Origin: a virus
Direction: 5' to 3' (one strand)
IMG/VR virus record: IMGVR_UViG_3300021959_000231
Coordinates: 1-30,932 of that record
DNA: 30,932 nt
The notes beneath the pieces were generated by a model. The model did not search any database. It had not been told where the DNA came from and was given only the letters and a program-made list of their open reading frames with translations. Numbering within the stretch: the stretch's first letter is position 1; each line of letters begins with the position of its first letter. Shown here piece after piece: positions 3,205 to 15,575 of this stretch. Both the position numbers and the translations under genes were made by a program.

Positions 3205-4692
3205 TCACGATCCTATTGCATGAACTGTTGATGCTCTAGAAGTAGCCGTTCTTAGATAAATCTGAGACGAGTCTGATATACTGATGAAGATTTCTTCACC
3301 TGGCTCTAGTGGATATCCATTAGTTGACGAATTCTGTAGGCTCGTTGTTCCTACGAATACCTGTCCTACATTATTCTGTGATGCCTTGATTGTTACACCG
3401 TTTTGTAATGTTCTAGACTTAAGTGGTTTTCCATTACCAGTGACTGATATGGTTTCCACGAACATGGTTGAAGGTGGGACAACTTGGTTTACACTTGTCT
3501 TTACAAACTTCTCTGTTCCGACTGTGGTTACAGAATCTGCAACTGAACTTAGAGATGTGTTTGCGGTATCAACCTTTCCACTAACCGTAGTTACAGTGGA
3601 GTTTAGAGTGGCAATCTTACTATCCACGTTAGTCACTGACGTTGCGGTGTTTAGTGTGTTAGTTGCCACAGTTCCCACCACGGTAACTTCATCTGTGGAA
3701 GTTAGGTTGCGAATGTCAAGATCACTGGCAGAAACGATAACCGAATCTCCTGCCCCTTCTCCATTGACTTTCACTGGGACCATATTGACCTTACCTTCAA
3801 CTGCCATTGTGGTTCCTGATGTGTTAGACACACCGATGTTGCTTGCCACGTTGACTGAGAACGTAATTCCACTAGTGTTTGTGAAGTTCACATTCAGAGC
3901 GTCCCCAGAGACCCCTAGACGGGTTCCTGCTGCGTAGAGATCGACTGGGAGGGTCGTACCTCCAGATGAGTTGTAGACTGCTACAGAGTCCGTTCCTGCT
4001 GCGAGATCGCGGATGTCTAGATCTGTTGCGACGGCTGTTACCGTACCAGTAACACCCAAGTTCGATCCAATTGTGCCTACTACTGATACGGTATCACGGG
4101 AAGATTCAAGAGATCGAATATCAAACGATGATCCTGAGATTGGAACGGCAAGTCCACCCGACATACCCTGAACGGCAACATTATCTCTACCAGAATCTGT
4201 TCCAGTAAATCCTAGAGTTCCGCCTGCTAAACTACGAATATCGAGATCAGTTCCCTTAACGGTTACTGCATAACCACCAGAGATTCCCTGAATAGATCCA
4301 GTAATACCAACGGCAGAATAAACGGCTGGGTTTGCAGAAGAACCAATAGAACCAGTTCCACCTACGGTTCCAGTTACACCACCAGCAACGATTACCTTAA
4401 GGAATGATGCGGTGCTTCCGTAAATCTGTAAGGAGTTTCCAATGTCTAAAGTACCCTTGACTTTCAGTTCACCATTGTCTATAATAGATGCAGTTGATCC
4501 TCCTGAATAAGCGGAGAACAACTGAACAGGCATAGGATTGGTATTTGATACGCGAGTTGATGAGGTGTTGTCGCCAAAAACGGGTTTGATGATTTGAACG
4601 TGTGCGTCTGCGGTAGCACCAAATCCAAAGTCAGTAGCCATATTATATGTGGCTCCTGAAGGTCCGCTAGCGATGATGATATTATCGGGCAT
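3205..4692 (-). CDS. Repeat-containing fibre-like virion protein
   Basis: This 495-residue protein is dominated by Gly, Ser, Thr and Val in short beta-strand patterns (VTGTVGGTGSIGSS, TVSVVGTIGSNLGVTG), as in phage fibres and beta-helical adhesins. A seven-residue motif recurs four times: DLDIRSL (149-155), SFDIRSL (189-195), DLDIRDL (224-230) and DLDIRNL (324-330), each followed by a short variable-strand-variable unit. Residues about 343-395 are Thr/Ser/Val-rich with a heptad-like rhythm, possibly a trimeric coiled coil, and lead to a C-terminal beta domain. The start is supported by GGAG seven bases upstream on the minus strand. It heads a two-gene minus-strand unit, divergent from gp33. 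The exact virion position is unknown. Confidence 0.65.
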   Translation of the reverse strand: MPDNIIIASGPSGATYNMATDFGFGATADAHVQIIKPVFGDNTSSTRVSNTNPMPVQLFSAYSGGSTASIIDNGELKVKGTLDIGNSLQIYGSTASFLKVIVAGGVTGTVGGTGSIGSSANPAVYSAVGITGSIQGISGGYAVTVKGTDLDIRSLAGGTLGFTGTDSGRDNVAVQGMSGGLAVPISGSSFDIRSLESSRDTVSVVGTIGSNLGVTGTVTAVATDLDIRDLAAGTDSVAVYNSSGGTTLPVDLYAAGTRLGVSGDALNVNFTNTSGITFSVNVASNIGVSNTSGTTMAVEGKVNMVPVKVNGEGAGDSVIVSASDLDIRNLTSTDEVTVVGTVATNTLNTATSVTNVDSKIATLNSTVTTVSGKVDTANTSLSSVADSVTTVGTEKFVKTSVNQVVPPSTMFVETISVTGNGKPLKSRTLQNGVTIKASQNNVGQVFVGTTSLQNSSTNGYPLEPGEEIFISISDSSQIYLRTATSRASTVHAIGS

Positions 4693-6012: not shown

Positions 6013-7917
6013 TTATGCAAATCTAGGTGAAGAGAATCCACCGTATTTTGCTAGAGCATTTGCCATCGCGGCTGATGGTTCATTGTTACCTACACCGACA
6101 CCATTTATCGTGGTATTCGTTGTGGTTGAATTGCCAGAGTTCACAGTGGGTGCAACAACGGATGTGTTATTTCCACCTCCACCAGAACTTGCTCTCCCTT
6201 GTTCTGCACTAGCGATAGTAGATGTTGCAGTGCTTATTGGAGATATTGTAGTGGGTGTTAAAGCAGAAGTTTCTCTTGTAAATTGTTGCAAGTCTGAGTC
6301 ACTTATACTCTTCAATCCTGCGGATTTACTTTGAGCATTTAATGATTGCATTGCAGATAGAAGACCATCTTTATCAGCAGATATAAATTCAGGATCGAGA
6401 CTAACTGCTTGTATCGCTTTATCTATCTCACCACGAACCAAGAACGGTCTAGCAATCCTCATTGCTTTTTTAGCAAGCATCATTGAGTTTGATTTATCAG
6501 CCGAAAGCCTTTGACTCTCGGCGTTGAAGTCAGTGTCCGCTGCTACTCCGGCCTCTGCTTCCTTTGATGTTGCGAGCATACCCGTCATTCGTCCAAGAAA
6601 ACCTATGGGTGTAGCACTAAACATATTAATAAGAGCGTCGTTGAACTTATCTTCACCAAAGACCGCACTGCCTAGTTTGTTTAAACCATACCCAGCAGCA
6701 CCACCTGCGACTGCGGCGCCGGCAACTGCGGCCGCTGGTAGTGCTAATGCACTTGCTCCACCGGCCGCTCCAGCGGCAAGACCTCCTAATTTACCAAGAC
6801 CAAGGCCAGTGAGGAGCGTTCCGCCGATCTTTAGTGCGCCGCCCCCAACTTTTTTACCAAAACCCAGAAGTTTTCCTAATTTACCTTTAGGTTTGGGTTG
6901 GGGTCCGAATGGGACGGGGGGTTTTTTTCCTCTTCCTAAGAATCCTAAACCAGCCGCAGTTGCAAGTCCCTCAATAAGACTTCCTAATAAACCCCCACCA
7001 CCTTCTTCATCTGTTCCCTTACCTGATTGCATAGATGCTGCTCTTGTTGCATCACCGCTTGCCTTTTTTCTTCTACTTGCTTCTAGTTTGTCTTCTCTTG
7101 ATTGTAGTTTGTCTGGGGTGAGTAACTTCTCTATATTTCTTAAAATTACGGTTTGTCTTACTAGTTCCTTTGTTATCCCATCACCACTTGGTTTTCCTGT
7201 GATTGGACCACCTGTGTATGGACTAGATGGAGATATATCAGCACCACCACGAGGTGCTGCCATTCCCATTCCACTTTTCTTTAGTCCAAGACCAAACGAA
7301 CCACCCGTTACTGTAAGACCAGCCTGCTCTGCTCTCTCTGATAATGCAAGAGTTAGTGCGTTTTCGTCAAAATCACCAGATCCATATGTTTCTAAGAGGG
7401 ACTCCATTTCATCCTCAGTGGTCGCTCCTAGTTGAATAAGAATATCAATGAAGGCGCCAGGGTCGTCAGATCCCTTTACTGCTTTAGCAAAAATTGCTTC
7501 GAGTGCTTCACCACCACTCTCGTTCTTGGCTTTCGCCGCATCGAACATTTTTTTAATAGACTTTCTTAACTCTAGTTGATCCTTTTTTGCTTTCTTAACA
7601 AGACCCTTTTGTCTTTTAAATCTAACTGCTGATCTAAGTAGACCACCACCGGGAGTAATCGAAACCGCTCTTTCTTTAAGATCGGATACACCACCACGAA
7701 CTGCTCCACCAAGAGCGCCCAGTGTGCTTCGGTCATCTGGTATGAAGTCAGCAGAAGACTTACGAGTCATCGCTCTCATATTGTTAATAGACTTGCGATC
7801 AAACGATCCACCAACACCTTTTTTACCACTTCTATCTCGTTCTAAATTCTTTAAAAATTTATCGAGACGCTTGGCGTTCTTTTGGGTTAGTTCTTCTGTT
7901 TTTTGTGGATCGGCCAT
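6013..7917 (-). CDS. Probable tail tape-measure protein
   Basis: This 634-residue protein has no obvious enzyme motif. Residues 1-130 are highly charged and helical (NAKRLDKFLKNLERDRS, KKDQLELRKSIKKMFDA). The middle contains long Gly/Ala/Leu hydrophobic stretches (about 308-328 and 360-420, for example GGLAAGAAGGASALALPAAA), and the C-terminus is Ser/Thr/Asn-rich. Hydrophobic patches in a long, helical, low-complexity protein are typical of tape measures, which set tail length and can enter the host membrane. The size is near T4 gp29 (590 residues). It is the last gene of a minus-strand unit and directly follows the gp26/gp51 pair, the usual place for a tape measure after tail chaperones. Its ATG lies four bases past the stop of the gp51-like ORF. 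A gp29-like identity is inference; another baseplate hub protein is the alternative. Confidence 0.55.
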   Translation of the reverse strand: MADPQKTEELTQKNAKRLDKFLKNLERDRSGKKGVGGSFDRKSINNMRAMTRKSSADFIPDDRSTLGALGGAVRGGVSDLKERAVSITPGGGLLRSAVRFKRQKGLVKKAKKDQLELRKSIKKMFDAAKAKNESGGEALEAIFAKAVKGSDDPGAFIDILIQLGATTEDEMESLLETYGSGDFDENALTLALSERAEQAGLTVTGGSFGLGLKKSGMGMAAPRGGADISPSSPYTGGPITGKPSGDGITKELVRQTVILRNIEKLLTPDKLQSREDKLEASRRKKASGDATRAASMQSGKGTDEEGGGGLLGSLIEGLATAAGLGFLGRGKKPPVPFGPQPKPKGKLGKLLGFGKKVGGGALKIGGTLLTGLGLGKLGGLAAGAAGGASALALPAAAVAGAAVAGGAAGYGLNKLGSAVFGEDKFNDALINMFSATPIGFLGRMTGMLATSKEAEAGVAADTDFNAESQRLSADKSNSMMLAKKAMRIARPFLVRGEIDKAIQAVSLDPEFISADKDGLLSAMQSLNAQSKSAGLKSISDSDLQQFTRETSALTPTTISPISTATSTIASAEQGRASSGGGGNNTSVVAPTVNSGNSTTTNTTINGVGVGNNEPSAAMANALAKYGGFSSPRFA

Positions 7918-7921
7918 TTAA

Positions 7922-8065
7922 CTACCTTTTGTTTGATGCTTCTTTTTCTTCCTGTAGCCATCTTTGCAACTGTGCAATGTAAATGTCTCTCTCCCACGGA
8001 ATCCAGTTCATGATGTCCTGATATGAATACTTATAATGGTGCATTAATTGAAATGTCAATTTCAT
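7922..8065 (-). CDS. gp51-like short ORF / -1 frameshift extension of gp26
   Basis: The ATG at 8065 gives 47 residues: MKLTFQLMHHYKYSYQDIMN, then WIPWERDIYIAQLQ and a charged tail. The pattern (Leu-Met-His-His, aromatic, Asp-Ile, then PWER-x-IY) is what I recall for the short gp51-type hub assembly proteins of marine T4-like phages and for C-terminal parts of tail chaperones. The same frame is open upstream of this ATG as far as the slippery site in gp26 at 8101-8107. It may thus be made as a 59-residue extension of gp26, giving a 295-residue product, as well as or instead of separately. No convincing ribosome site precedes 8065 beyond GGAG at 8075-8072, which itself lies in a stem. T4 gp51 catalyses hub assembly and is not found in the virion. 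Confidence 0.75.
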   Translation of the reverse strand: MKLTFQLMHHYKYSYQDIMNWIPWERDIYIAQLQRWLQEEKEASNKR

Positions 8066-8069
8066 GTAC

Positions 8070-8107
8070 GTCTCCAAATTCAGGTGGGAGACACTAATCC
8101 AAAAAAA
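8070..8107 (-). promoter_or_regulatory. Predicted -1 ribosomal frameshift site in gp26
   Basis: On the minus strand, codons GAT TTT TTT GGA of gp26 contain the heptamer T-TTT-TTT (8107-8101). After eight bases, GTCTCC (8092-8087) pairs with GGAGAC (8075-8070) around an 11-base loop that contains the gp26 stop codon (8082-8080). Two G-U pairs can extend the stem. A -1 slip leads to WISVSHLNLETYMKLTF and on into the gp51-like frame with no stop. Slippery sequence, spacer and stem all match the known layout for programmed -1 frameshifting. Confidence 0.75.
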
Positions 8108-8808
8108 TCGTTGAGTCCTGTCAGGGTAAATTCTTTCTCTTCGTCCTCTGAAATATTCTGCTTGAATGTGTATGAAAGAACAGGTGCCTTTTCTGCAAAC
8201 TTGATTAATTTTGTGAACTGGTCTTCGGTCATGTTTTCAATGAACTCAATTTTTTCTTTCAGTGATATATCATTTCCGCTGAGTGATTCTTCTTGCATCG
8301 TTATAGTGTCTATCATACATGCTAGACTTTTAATGATTACTTCTTGTGTTGGATCATACACATTTATCTCATGCTTGATGATATCACTCATCGTAAGATC
8401 ACGCATTGTGATGTTAATATTTTGCGTTATGGCTACTTTAGAACTTCTTCTTTTTGCCTTTGCTGGGGGTTTCACTTCTTTCAAATCAACCTTTACGGTT
8501 GTTGGTGCTTTGTTTATTTCTCTGTAGACCAAATCTAATTCATCACCAATCGACTTTTCTCTTAACTTAAGAAACAAATATTCTGCCTCTGCTAGGGGGA
8601 TAGATGAAATATCAAGGTCTCTATAGCAACTGTCTAAAACGTTTTTGATTGTTCGTATAATATCAACAAATTCACCTTCCTCTGAGATGAGGAGTAAGGT
8701 CTTCTCTTCTTTCACTAAGAAAGGTCTGAAGCACAGAGTATTATCGATCGAAGATAACTTCGTTGAATACTCGGGTAGTTCAGATTTTAACATTTCAACT
8801 AATTTCAT
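8080..8808 (-). CDS. gp26: Baseplate hub / tail assembly protein gp26
   Basis: This 242-residue protein (T4 gp26: 208) shows the family core near the N-terminus: FRPFLVKEEKTLLLISEEGE, a helix around IIRTIKNVLDSCYRDLDISS, then IPLAEAEYLFLKLREKSIGD. In T4, gp26 acts in central hub assembly of the baseplate. The C-terminal third ends with a helical acidic segment (EFIENMTEDQFTKLIKFAEK) and FSLTGLND-type residues before the last six codons, which follow the slippery T-run. The start at 8808 has GGAG (8822-8819) ten bases upstream. By position and frame it probably makes two products, the short form and a -1 frameshifted long form, like the paired tail chaperones G and GT of lambda. Confidence 0.8.
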   Translation of the reverse strand: MKLVEMLKSELPEYSTKLSSIDNTLCFRPFLVKEEKTLLLISEEGEFVDIIRTIKNVLDSCYRDLDISSIPLAEAEYLFLKLREKSIGDELDLVYREINKAPTTVKVDLKEVKPPAKAKRRSSKVAITQNINITMRDLTMSDIIKHEINVYDPTQEVIIKSLACMIDTITMQEESLSGNDISLKEKIEFIENMTEDQFTKLIKFAEKAPVLSYTFKQNISEDEEKEFTLTGLNDFFGLVSPT

Positions 8809-8833: not shown

Positions 8834-9433
8834 TTAGATTCTAGACTGAGGTAATCCTGATGCTGCGTCGGTCATCGCCTCTCCACGACTTCCCACTTGT
8901 AGTTCAAACTGTCTGAATGACCAAGAGATAGACATCGTTTGGTATTCATTTTGTGATGCGGCGTTTAGTTCGATTCCGTTCATCGTTACTGGGAAGCAGT
9001 CATATAGGTTGTATATAGTCCGAGACATATTATCCCAGCGGTCGCCACTGTAATAAGTTATAACGAGACCACCTATAATCTCATTATAGTAGTTTACTTT
9101 ATCATCGGGAGCATTTTTTATTGTATTCATCCAGTTCGTGATGTATTGGTGTAGTGGTTGACTGTATAGGCAGGTCATCTCAAAATCACCACTATAGACA
9201 CGCTCTGTTGGAACGTTATACACAGGGCCCCATATCGTTTTTTGTTCTGTTCCTACCTGACGGCCTGGTGTGGTACAACTTAGAACATGAAAATCACCAT
9301 TGAATGTTGTAATCGAGTCTGGACCTACAAAGTCTTCGGCTAGAGGTGAGGTTATACTCACATCAAATGTGTGCTTATAAGATAGATTATTCTTACTTTT
9401 TGACTGTAGTGTACTAAATGATCGTGAGGTCAT
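8834..9433 (-). CDS. Tail-tube-fold protein (gp54/gp19-like)
   Basis: This 199-residue protein shows the pattern of T4-like tail tube proteins: FDVSITSPLAEDF, a strand with LSCTTPGRQVGTEQ, YSGDFEMTCLYSQPLHQYIT, NWMNTIKNAPDDKVNYYNEI, and a closing strand near FPVTMNGIELNAASQNEYQT. gp19 builds the tube that the sheath surrounds, and its relative gp54 starts tube polymerisation on the baseplate. Placement next to gp26 and close to gp48, rather than beside the sheath gene, favours the gp54 role. However, 199 residues is nearer gp19 (163) than T4 gp54 (320). It lies between gp4 and gp26 in a minus-strand unit and has CGGAG about ten bases before the ATG. Confidence 0.75.
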   Translation of the reverse strand: MTSRSFSTLQSKSKNNLSYKHTFDVSITSPLAEDFVGPDSITTFNGDFHVLSCTTPGRQVGTEQKTIWGPVYNVPTERVYSGDFEMTCLYSQPLHQYITNWMNTIKNAPDDKVNYYNEIIGGLVITYYSGDRWDNMSRTIYNLYDCFPVTMNGIELNAASQNEYQTMSISWSFRQFELQVGSRGEAMTDAASGLPQSRI

Positions 9434-11660: not shown

Positions 11661-14600
11661 ATGTCATTTTACGAAGGTGGTATAGAGAAAATTAGTATTG
11701 CAAGCGATGGTTGGATTATTGGAAAAGGCAATAGTGTCGATGTTCCAATTGATGTTGATGTAATCGCTTTAGATTTTACTGAGGACATGTTTCGTAATTC
11801 AATAGCAGGAACACTTGTAGTCTCTACAAGATCTGGGTGGGATGCTGACTTGGGTAGTATTAATGGAACCGAGTGGATCACTATTACATTCAACAGTTTC
11901 TCTAGTAATGAGAATAGTGATGCAGATTCCTTCCAAGCAGAGATTAGATTTAAGGCATATAAAGTGTCAAACACTGTTGCTGATAGTGGCAATATGAACA
12001 CTTATGTTTTTGCTTTTACCTCATACCAAGCGTTGATTGATACACATAAACTAGAAAGACATTTGAGCGACCAGCACATTGGTCCAATTTCTACAGACTC
12101 AGCCAATTCCGAATCCAACAATGAGCCGACAAATCAAGATTTCGGTTTTGTTAATAAAATTTTTGATCATCTATACGTCGAGTCGGATCAACAAAAAGGT
12201 TTTGTCTCAGGTGAGGATGTAGAAAATCAAATACCAAATCCAGACATCGAAGCCACAACTAACTGGATTAACTACGTTCCTGCTTATCTTGATAACAGAA
12301 CCAGTTCGGGTATCCTTGATGAATACTGGAGATTTGGTTCGTATTATAGTGGTCATAATGATGATGCAGGAAAGGATAGTAGACCGAGAAAAGTATTTGA
12401 GATACTTAATGAATTAGCCGAAAATGCAATCTCGAAAGAAAATCCAAACGCAGCAAACTTTTTTGTATGGCAGGATCTTAGTGGATGGCACTTTAGGTCG
12501 GTTGATAGTTATCTCAGAGATAGGGGTGAAAATGTTGAAGATGTAGATCGCACATATCAATATGATATTACCAATATACAAGTGCCATCGGAAACAGAAA
12601 TTGTTCGAGTCATCGATTTGAAAGTTATTAAACAAGTTGACATGATGGATTTACTTGCAAGTCAAGCATTATCCTCTAAGGTTGTTTATTACGAACTAAA
12701 TCCAGAAAACGAGTTTGCATCATACTACATGTCTCTACCAGAGAATCTACTAGGAACAACCAGAGTTATTGGTCCGAATGGTTTTCAAGATAGTGTCGGT
12801 GAGACTTTGATAGAAAATGAAACAATAGAAGAATCAAGTATAAGATATGATTATCTTTTAGACTATGATAAATGGGCAAAAGTAGAGGCATATCCATTGC
12901 TTCAAGACAAAGATAATCAGTATACAGATTACAGTAAGCCTAGTTTCTTGGAAGTTCCACCTGCATATACTAAATCTAGTGCAGGTAATGATTCATGGTT
13001 TTCTTCTGCAACATACGATGAAAACGATTTAACATATCGATGGTATCAGCAGAATAGAGTTGGAACTGAGATGAGTTTTAGAGTAAACAACCGTGCAGAA
13101 TATTTTAAACAAAAATTCTTACGGCAAACAACTCTAGAGGGATATAAGTTTAGAACTGTTTATGATAAAATCAAAACACCAATTATTAAGGCTTTACGGG
13201 ACTATTACAACATCAGTCTTCAGAGACTTTACTTGGAACATAATCTAGTCATTGAAGGAGGATTAAATACTCTAGAAGCCGGCGAGGGCAAAATTGGTCG
13301 AGGTGATGGTGGTTCTTATTGTGATTATTGTTTAAATAGAGAACAAACAATTTCTGATGGTGAGGCTGAACTCAAAAGAATTTTTGGTGATGAGTATTTT
13401 CAACAACAATATATTGATGGATTTACATATAAAGTAAGGACTAATCGTGATGAACCAACTGAAGAACCTCAGTATGATATAATTGGTTTTGATCAAGTTG
13501 GATATGAAAATGCGGTAATAAATGCATATCTTTTTGGTGCCAATAACGTCGGGCCTGTATCAGGTCTTCCTCCAGTTCAAACGTCGGCTTTCGCAGATTT
13601 CTTAGATTTTAATATAAATGATTTTGATGGGAATGCCTTTCAAACATGTACGGCAAAGAATAGAGACAGAAGGACTCAAATATTAGGGTTTCCCTACATT
13701 CCCACTACGTCCTTCAACAACCCTAATTTCGGAGAAGAGGAAGAACGGAGAATCGCTGAGTTTTTATTAGATCTACCAGTTATAGAGTTTGATAATGTGG
13801 CAAGAGTAGATGAATCAATTCAAGGTCTATCATATCCAAGATGCACTACGCCCGAACCACTTCTTCCATATGATGGTAGCGAAGTTGATTGTGTTTCAAT
13901 TCGTGAAAAGTGGGAAGCCATTCCATCTGAATGTGAATTGGTTAGCACGCATCTAGGTCCAGAGTATGTGTCTCCTATAATCAGAGGAGATTATGGACAA
14001 CCAATAAACATCGACAATCCAACATTTTGGAATGGGTATTGGATTAATCCAAAATTTGGACTACCAAACCGACGAAACTATATTTCATTCTTTAGAGATT
14101 TGGATGCCAACTTTAGTGGTTCTGAGGCACAGTTATATGCAGTACACGAATCAAACATGTTCCTCAAAGACTTCTTACCTAATAATCTAGCAGAAACTGG
14201 TTTGCTTAATTTTGATTTTGGCACTCCTTATCTAAATACAGATTCTCTAGGGGATATAGTTTACAACCAGTATGGTAGTGGTTCTATAGATACTCCTAGA
14301 AAATATTTCGGGGAGTCGTATGCTTCGTTTACCATCGATTTGGTGAGAAGCAGCGTTACTGAAGGAGATATTCGTAATTCTACATTTGAAGATCCAGATC
14401 CAGTTCAAGAAGGTGATGAAATTACCACTACTTTCTCAGTTGATGTTAACTATATTCAAAATCCGAAGTATGACAAAGCGACAATCTGCTCAACTCCGTT
14501 CCTGTGTGGTCATCAAACAACAAGTGAAGAAACCATATCAGTTCCATATGTGAGTAAACTAACATATCGTGCAGAGGAAGTCAGCACCGGTGGATTTGGC

Positions 14601-15575
14601 GGTGGCGGTGCCGGAGGTCTCGGTGGTCAGTCGAGTACAGGGTTCGATCCTGGCTTCCCAGGCGCCGGCGAGGGTGGCGGCTTCGGCGGCGGCGGCGCCT
14701 TCGGCTTGCCCGACGACGATCCCGACGGCGGCTTCGGCGGCGGAGAACCGGTATATGTTATGAGATTGGCTGATGTACAAACAAGTACAATCAGTGTGAA
14801 ATTCCCTGCGGTTTGGTCCAGAGGACTTCCATACAACTACGGTAATATATCAAACTTACCAAAAAGATTCATAGGGTATCAAGGTAATTTCTTGGATAGT
14901 TCTTACATCGAATTCCTAAAGCAGTTTGGAATTATTAATGACGACTATCTTCAGAACCAAACTGGTGGCGACTTTGTAATTCAAGAACAGAATTCCGACA
15001 CCACTGGATTTGGGAATCGGGCTGGTATCGCAGAATTGTCTGGTACGCTCAGACAAAAGGGAATAGAAACTTCTTACGTTGGTAATAGGGCATTAAATCT
15101 ATACGATGCAAACAGACCAATATATCATAAGAAAGATTGGCAAAACTTCCTTGATTGTAGAGGAACTTGCGTAGGATCAGTTGCTGACGGTGAACCAAAT
15201 AATATAAATCCAGAGACGAACAAAGCAGTTGAATATGCTAAGTTGTGTTCATATGCTTGGAATCGATATTGGTCAACACCGAAAGAGCAGCCCATGTATA
15301 GAAGGGCGCAAGTTGCTCTTATTCAGTCTCAAGAGGTTGAGATCACAGTTCCGAATGACATGAACTTGACTATTGGTAATTTAGTTCGCTTAATTCTACC
15401 CAAGTCGAAATCTCTTGCAAAAACAGAAGATAGTGCTAATCAGGAAAGGATCAATCCCTTATCGGGTAGATACTTGGTTACGGGTATTCGACGAACGTTC
15501 ACAGGAAATAATACACAAGCAATGAGGGTTAGATTAAACCGAGATAGTTTACCTTATGATCCAAATAACTCGTAA
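11661..15575 (+). CDS. Giant baseplate hub protein (gp27-like ends)
   Basis: This 1304-residue protein has an N-terminal region like T4-type hub proteins: DVIALDFTEDMFRNSIAGTL, then WITITFNSF. An internal stretch around 265-290 (NFFVWQDLSGWHFRSVDSYL) and MDLLASQALSSKVVYYELNP further on also fit. The C-terminus has the hub-type ending SGRYLVTGIRRTFTG...RLNRDSLPY. T4 gp27 is 391 residues, so roughly 800 extra residues lie between these parts. The inserts contain Cys pairs (YCDYC near 555) and a glycine-rich, GC-rich segment (about 973-1032). The hub forms the centre of the baseplate under the tube and carries the puncturing device. It lies between gp53 and gp25, where T4 has gene 5. No lysozyme motif was seen. 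GGAG (11650-11653) precedes the ATG. Confidence 0.7.
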   Translation: MSFYEGGIEKISIASDGWIIGKGNSVDVPIDVDVIALDFTEDMFRNSIAGTLVVSTRSGWDADLGSINGTEWITITFNSFSSNENSDADSFQAEIRFKAYKVSNTVADSGNMNTYVFAFTSYQALIDTHKLERHLSDQHIGPISTDSANSESNNEPTNQDFGFVNKIFDHLYVESDQQKGFVSGEDVENQIPNPDIEATTNWINYVPAYLDNRTSSGILDEYWRFGSYYSGHNDDAGKDSRPRKVFEILNELAENAISKENPNAANFFVWQDLSGWHFRSVDSYLRDRGENVEDVDRTYQYDITNIQVPSETEIVRVIDLKVIKQVDMMDLLASQALSSKVVYYELNPENEFASYYMSLPENLLGTTRVIGPNGFQDSVGETLIENETIEESSIRYDYLLDYDKWAKVEAYPLLQDKDNQYTDYSKPSFLEVPPAYTKSSAGNDSWFSSATYDENDLTYRWYQQNRVGTEMSFRVNNRAEYFKQKFLRQTTLEGYKFRTVYDKIKTPIIKALRDYYNISLQRLYLEHNLVIEGGLNTLEAGEGKIGRGDGGSYCDYCLNREQTISDGEAELKRIFGDEYFQQQYIDGFTYKVRTNRDEPTEEPQYDIIGFDQVGYENAVINAYLFGANNVGPVSGLPPVQTSAFADFLDFNINDFDGNAFQTCTAKNRDRRTQILGFPYIPTTSFNNPNFGEEEERRIAEFLLDLPVIEFDNVARVDESIQGLSYPRCTTPEPLLPYDGSEVDCVSIREKWEAIPSECELVSTHLGPEYVSPIIRGDYGQPINIDNPTFWNGYWINPKFGLPNRRNYISFFRDLDANFSGSEAQLYAVHESNMFLKDFLPNNLAETGLLNFDFGTPYLNTDSLGDIVYNQYGSGSIDTPRKYFGESYASFTIDLVRSSVTEGDIRNSTFEDPDPVQEGDEITTTFSVDVNYIQNPKYDKATICSTPFLCGHQTTSEETISVPYVSKLTYRAEEVSTGGFGGGGAGGLGGQSSTGFDPGFPGAGEGGGFGGGGAFGLPDDDPDGGFGGGEPVYVMRLADVQTSTISVKFPAVWSRGLPYNYGNISNLPKRFIGYQGNFLDSSYIEFLKQFGIINDDYLQNQTGGDFVIQEQNSDTTGFGNRAGIAELSGTLRQKGIETSYVGNRALNLYDANRPIYHKKDWQNFLDCRGTCVGSVADGEPNNINPETNKAVEYAKLCSYAWNRYWSTPKEQPMYRRAQVALIQSQEVEITVPNDMNLTIGNLVRLILPKSKSLAKTEDSANQERINPLSGRYLVTGIRRTFTGNNTQAMRVRLNRDSLPYDPNNS
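14580..14755 (+). repeat. GC-rich glycine-repeat insert inside hub gene
   Basis: This in-frame segment encodes Gly/Phe/Ala/Asp/Pro low-complexity sequence (GGFGGGGAGGLGG, then LPDDDPDGGFGGGEP). By my count 84 of the 110 bases at 14641-14750 are G or C, against 21 of 60 at 14821-14880. The 17-mer GGCGGCTTCGGCGGCGG occurs at 14676-14692 and 14727-14743, both in frame and 51 bases apart. It probably forms a flexible surface linker. Confidence 0.85.

Follow-up and report, generated by a model that had tools for sequence, protein, structure and literature searches.

The gp26/gp51 junction on the minus strand of IMG/VR record IMGVR_UViG_3300021959_000231, from an uncultured T4-like phage, resembles several known frameshifting systems; the window, as we call the whole stretch analysed, is 30,932 nucleotides (nt) long. 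The lambda G/GT tail assembly chaperone (TAC) pair uses the slippery sequence GGGAAAG, and the Escherichia coli dnaX cassette combines a Shine-Dalgarno (SD)-like element, the heptamer A AAA AAG and a hairpin. Among T4-like phages, frameshifting is reportedly conserved in several groups, and T4 genes 26 and 51 are said to have been named TAC-N and TAC-NC.

The T4-like chaperone genes were identified by Vladimirov, Gautam and Davidson (2022, Virology 566:9-15, doi 10.1016/j.virol.2021.11.003). PMC12846349 (2025) cites that study for polyT frameshift signals in T4-like TAC-N genes, and PMC10885494 states that in some T4-like phages a short gene accompanied by a longer, fused one takes the place of frameshifting. 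Read together, PMC10885494 and PMC12846349 outline two routes in T4-like phages, frameshifting in some and, in others, a short and a long form encoded by separate genes. In the Vandenendeviridae and Andersonviridae, PMC12846349 finds that every genome has an open -1 frame and that a GTTTTT motif at the TAC-N end is invariant. The original prediction for the window had proposed a programmed -1 frameshift that fuses gp26 to a gp51-like extension and knew of no earlier description for this pair; the novelty is not borne out, since PMC10885494 and PMC12846349 cite Vladimirov, Gautam and Davidson (2022) for the two routes. Frameshifting of this kind is already known and the window contig adds another member, while the 5' element and hairpin described below may be new detail beyond the earlier description.

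The locus belongs to the same protein families as the T4-like gp26/gp51 chaperones of Vladimirov et al. (2022), with a PF12322 gp26 domain and a gp51 extension. Its gene order, running from tail tube through gp26 and gp51 to the tape-measure position, is that of lambda V-G-T-H, and the proposal that gp26/gp51 is the counterpart of lambda G/GT is supported. The slippery sequence differs from that of lambda, and a 5' SD-like element and a hairpin are found in the window and its relatives. Like the dnaX cassette, it combines an SD-like element ~10 nt upstream with a slippery heptamer and a downstream hairpin, whereas the heptamer is T TTT TTN rather than A AAA AAG and the gene is unrelated. The open -1 frame and the T-rich motif at the TAC-N end recall the Vandenendeviridae and Andersonviridae, which are other phage families.

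The junction and its proposed products

A direct reading of the sequence recovers every junction feature of the original prediction at its predicted position, including the -1 frame open for 59 codons and the 295-residue product. The features, each with its basis, are as follows:

8080..8808, minus strand: gp26 homologue, the 0-frame product and putative short tail assembly chaperone (TAC-N), 242 aa (PF12322, phrog_150, AlphaFold2, BFVD)
8112..8119, minus strand: SD-like stretch with an AGGA core, candidate 5' stimulator ~8-12 nt before the slip site (sequence; fixed position and synonymous enrichment in relatives)
8101..8107, minus strand: slippery heptamer T TTT TTT, on which both tRNA-Phe can re-pair after a -1 slip (sequence; T TTT TTN in 99/99 loci)
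8093..8100, minus strand: 8-nt spacer GGATTAGT (sequence)
8070..8092, minus strand: downstream hairpin, GTCTCC (8092-8087), 11 nt, GGAGAC (8075-8070) (folding; family-wide structure excess; covariation in the relatives' equivalent hairpin)
7922..8101, minus strand: -1 frame extension, gp51-like domain (TAC-C), 59 residues WISVSHLNLETYMK...SNKR plus stop (phrog_634, E 4e-19)
7922..8065, minus strand: possible internal start at ATG 8065 with GGAG 6 nt upstream, 47 aa, graded secondary or unused (sequence; SD-preceded starts at 13/95 junctions)

At the slip site the gp26 codons read GAT TTT TTT GGA, and the gp26 stop (TGA, 8082-8080) lies in the 11-nt hairpin loop. Measured from the end of gp26, the -1 frame is free of stops for 160 nt upstream and 158 nt downstream. 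The fused product comprises 236 residues up to the two phenylalanine (FF) codons and 59 codons of the -1 frame, the frame in which ATG 8065 also falls. The 0-frame tail after the slip counts 6 codons, longer than in most relatives.

We consider it highly probable that -1 programmed frameshifting makes a short and a long tail assembly chaperone from gp26 and the gp51-like -1 frame, which would then be two parts of one chaperone gene. Most ribosomes would translate gp26 to the stop at 8080 and produce the 242-aa short chaperone, while on T TTT TTT (8107-8101) a fraction would move one base backwards, with tRNA-Phe in both the P site and the A site re-pairing with TTT, and continue in the -1 frame to 7922. 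The result would be a minor long chaperone (TAC-NC) of 295 aa that ends in the 59-residue gp51 domain and links the tape measure to tube subunits. Slippage is probably made more frequent by the SD-like element and by the hairpin, which follows after ~8 nt. If the lambda G/GT model holds here, many short and few long copies may coat the tape measure, recruit tail-tube subunits and then leave. Sequence comparison establishes the conserved slip site, the reading frames, the 5' element, the hairpin at family level and the gene order; that slippage takes place in vivo, how often it does so and that its products act as chaperones we infer.

Conservation of the slip site in related phages

We surveyed gp26/gp51 junctions in related-phage records, in 80 further contigs found via a gp26 pattern blind to the junction, and in the window together with the two contigs nearly identical to it. 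With T4 and one duplicate of the window locus omitted, 99 loci with 95 distinct junctions were left, from which a thinned set of 35 representatives below 60% identity was drawn. The survey includes KVP40, rhizobial, Stenotrophomonas, Pseudomonas and Methylophilales phages and many cyanophages or marine phages. Beyond these two contigs, no relative found exceeds ~38% identity in gp26; a DNA-level search of phages with the window locus gave no match, single-protein scans for close relatives returned the near-identical contigs only, and the gp51-only alignment is too variable to drive a collection scan.

In all 99 loci the same FF codons are spelled T TTT TTN and gp51 lies in the -1 frame, and all 35 representatives keep the motif. 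The slip site lies 9-33 nt before the gp26 end, and the -1 frame stays open for 158-206 nt past the gp26 stop (one contig ends before its stop), whereas the +1 frame, checked at the same junctions, closes within 7-82 nt. Because the same type of heptamer recurs at the same codons in every locus, against in-frame occurrences elsewhere in gp26 genes at 3 of 17,100 codon positions, the T run is not a product of chance. Synonymous codon choice points the same way: at 95/95 junctions the codon before FF ends in T, where 63% would be expected, and at 95/95 TTT encodes the first Phe, where 71% would be expected, so conservation of the slippery site exceeds protein-coding need. The GenBank records of S-BM3 (L003, 3182-3366) and P-RSM1 (L014, 3221-3398) leave the extension unannotated, with the -1 frame intact.

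Homopolymers are generally error-prone, and the T run could be accidental, or the result of an assembly indel in a gp26 and gp51 that truly form one frame; no tool result favours such a reading. The register of the T run is identical in two independent metagenome contigs, L001 (3 mismatches) and L002 (1), over ~2.3-2.4 kb, and therefore is not an assembly indel; it is also the same in finished reference genomes of isolates. Chance and assembly error are refuted by this shared register and by the 99/99 loci, and we leave them virtually no probability.

A frame change by RNA polymerase, through transcriptional slippage on the T run, would find in the window a homopolymer of 7 T. Such slippage usually requires longer runs, however, and 77/95 junctions have just six T and then C, while the codon phase never varies and the flanking signals, SD-like on the 5' side and a hairpin on the 3' side, are ones that ribosomes respond to, which makes this explanation extremely unlikely.

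The gp51-like extension and the flanking elements

The 0-frame product matches PF12322 (T4_baseplate, E 3e-37, above the cut-off) and phrog_150 (E 9e-42), is modelled by AlphaFold2 with a confidence score (pLDDT) of 92 and matches gp26 models from other T4-like phages in BFVD; against T4 gp26, the family aligns with 99% probability in hhalign. The extension (58 aa) matches phrog_634, 'baseplate hub assembly catalyst'. In the fused protein the phrog_150 score rises from 144 to 171.5 bits, and the match covers positions 9-277 of 282 in phrog_150 and 4-113 of 121 in phrog_634. The fused protein thus spans both profiles, and therefore some members of phrog_150 and phrog_634 already contain both parts.

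In the aligned extensions, homology sets in directly at the slip site and thus ahead of ATG 8065. The fusion of the original prediction stands, but its gp51-like partner is not an independent gene joined to gp26, and annotated 'gp51 ORFs' (open reading frames) are fragments because the conserved domain starts right at the slip site. The opposite reading, in which gp51 is a separate downstream gene translated from ATG 8065 by translational coupling via GGAG and the T run is incidental, draws on the GGAG-6 nt-ATG arrangement in the window and on the separate gp51 coding sequence (CDS) in GenBank records. We regard it as very unlikely: a start at ATG 8065 would cut off residues conserved from the slip site on, every junction keeps T TTT TTN by synonymous choice, and S-BM3 and P-RSM1, both annotated, call no gp51 at all despite an intact frame. 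On the independent start that the original prediction had weighed against frameshifting, the outcome is mixed, as the window does carry the GGAG and an SD-preceded start in the extension stretch occurs at only 13/95 junctions. Initiation at ATG 8065 as a side product is possible, although such starts are not conserved.

The hairpin 3' arm GGAGAC doubles as a possible SD sequence for ATG 8065 (8092-8065, minus strand), and the hairpin could therefore mask this start.

Upstream of the slip site, SD-core 4-mers cluster at -15, -14 and -12 in the surveyed junctions, and a 4-mer at the fixed offset is present in 19/35 representatives compared with 3.7% in controls. The Glu codon before the conserved Gly is GAG in 61/73 cases against a 30% background, a bias kept in the thinned representatives (13/15, p 9e-6). 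The SD-like element ~10 nt upstream is thus, on the codon comparison, held in place by synonymous choice.

Downstream of the slip site, the next 45 nt form more stable structure than do recodings that leave the -1 protein unchanged (mean z -1.67; p<=0.05 in 39%), whereas a control segment does not (z 0.02; p<=0.05 in 3%). In a 17-sequence subgroup, a 10-pair stem covaries (score 0.127 versus 0.038 when shuffled, 0/500), and the signal is lost once the partner is slid; the subgroup was chosen for sharing the stem, which biases the percentage paired while the covariation score is still informative. The window hairpin occupies the same place, though its 5' arm is shifted by 2 nt. Comparative folding thus indicates that the family as a whole has significant structure at this place. 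Programmed -1 frameshifting is supported by the 99/99 loci, by synonymous codon choice and by this folding signal, and the expected conservation at related junctions is found for the T run and the -1 overlap in every locus and for structure as a family-wide excess, the hairpin of the window itself being modest.

The T4 group and the neighbouring genes

T4 and six relatives offer a natural control. They keep the end of gp26 but with non-slippery codons, e.g., GAG TTC TTT, and have a separate gp51, with genes 26 and 51 divergently oriented. In the 249-residue T4 gp51, PF12322 spans residues 1-201, and the C-terminus fits the profile of the extension (probability 90%, E 2e-6). T4 gp51, which has the length of an N+C fusion, is itself the long form, and T4 therefore uses two genes for the products that the window obtains from one frameshifted gene. 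In both phages gp26 corresponds to the N domain only and the long form to N plus C, whereas T4 uses two divergent genes without a slippery site and the window one frameshifted gene.

The chaperone locus sits between a tail tube gene and an ORF at the tape-measure position:

8834..9433, minus strand: tail tube protein (gp19-like), directly upstream, in the lambda V position (phrog_45, E 5e-19)
6013..7917, minus strand: 634-aa ORF in the tape-measure position (position only)

For the 634-aa ORF there is no match in PHROGs, Pfam or a tblastn search against 50,697 phage records; its phiM12 equivalent is annotated 'similarity to phage tape measure proteins'. Elsewhere in the window, a 495-aa glycine/serine/threonine-rich ORF (3205-4692, minus strand) adjoins the tail genes and is without PHROG or Pfam matches, and the best-matching stretch of a 1304-aa ORF (11661-15575, plus strand), only its last ~115 residues, fits the phage tail family phrog_350.

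Several observations weigh against frameshifting into a long chaperone in the window. ATG 8065 carries a usable SD sequence. The 5' element of the window is only AGGA, weaker than the GGAGG of most relatives, and its hairpin is modest (-8.1 kcal/mol, z -1.4) and not individually significant (p 0.065 when the near-identical junction of L001 is set against its synonymous recodings). Among solved tail assembly chaperones the fold search gives HK97 2ob9 at a non-significant E 2.6 (probability 0.16), and its best hit overall has E 0.36; a profile search of PDB sequences gives a chance hit only, and the tape-measure gene is assigned by position and synteny only.

More tentatively, a conserved three-part cassette might drive the gp26/gp51 frameshift, in which a U-rich heptamer is preceded at a constant distance by an SD-like element and followed by a hairpin. 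In some lineages, including the window, an SD sequence and start codon would lie in or just after the hairpin 3' arm, so that the hairpin could additionally control whether the C domain is made on its own. The T4 group would have lost the cassette on giving the long form a gene of its own. We hold this combined proposal to be possible but rather doubtful.

The 95 distinct junctions confirm frameshifting as the usual tail-chaperone route in non-T4 members of the T4 superfamily. In many GenBank genomes gp51 is either absent from the annotation or listed as a gene of its own under the name 'baseplate hub assembly catalyst'; it should be annotated as the end of a joined CDS. The SD-like element supplies a testable signal at the codon level. 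In evolutionary terms, the family sets a frameshift against a gene split, with the loss of the slippery codons in T4 as a natural control.
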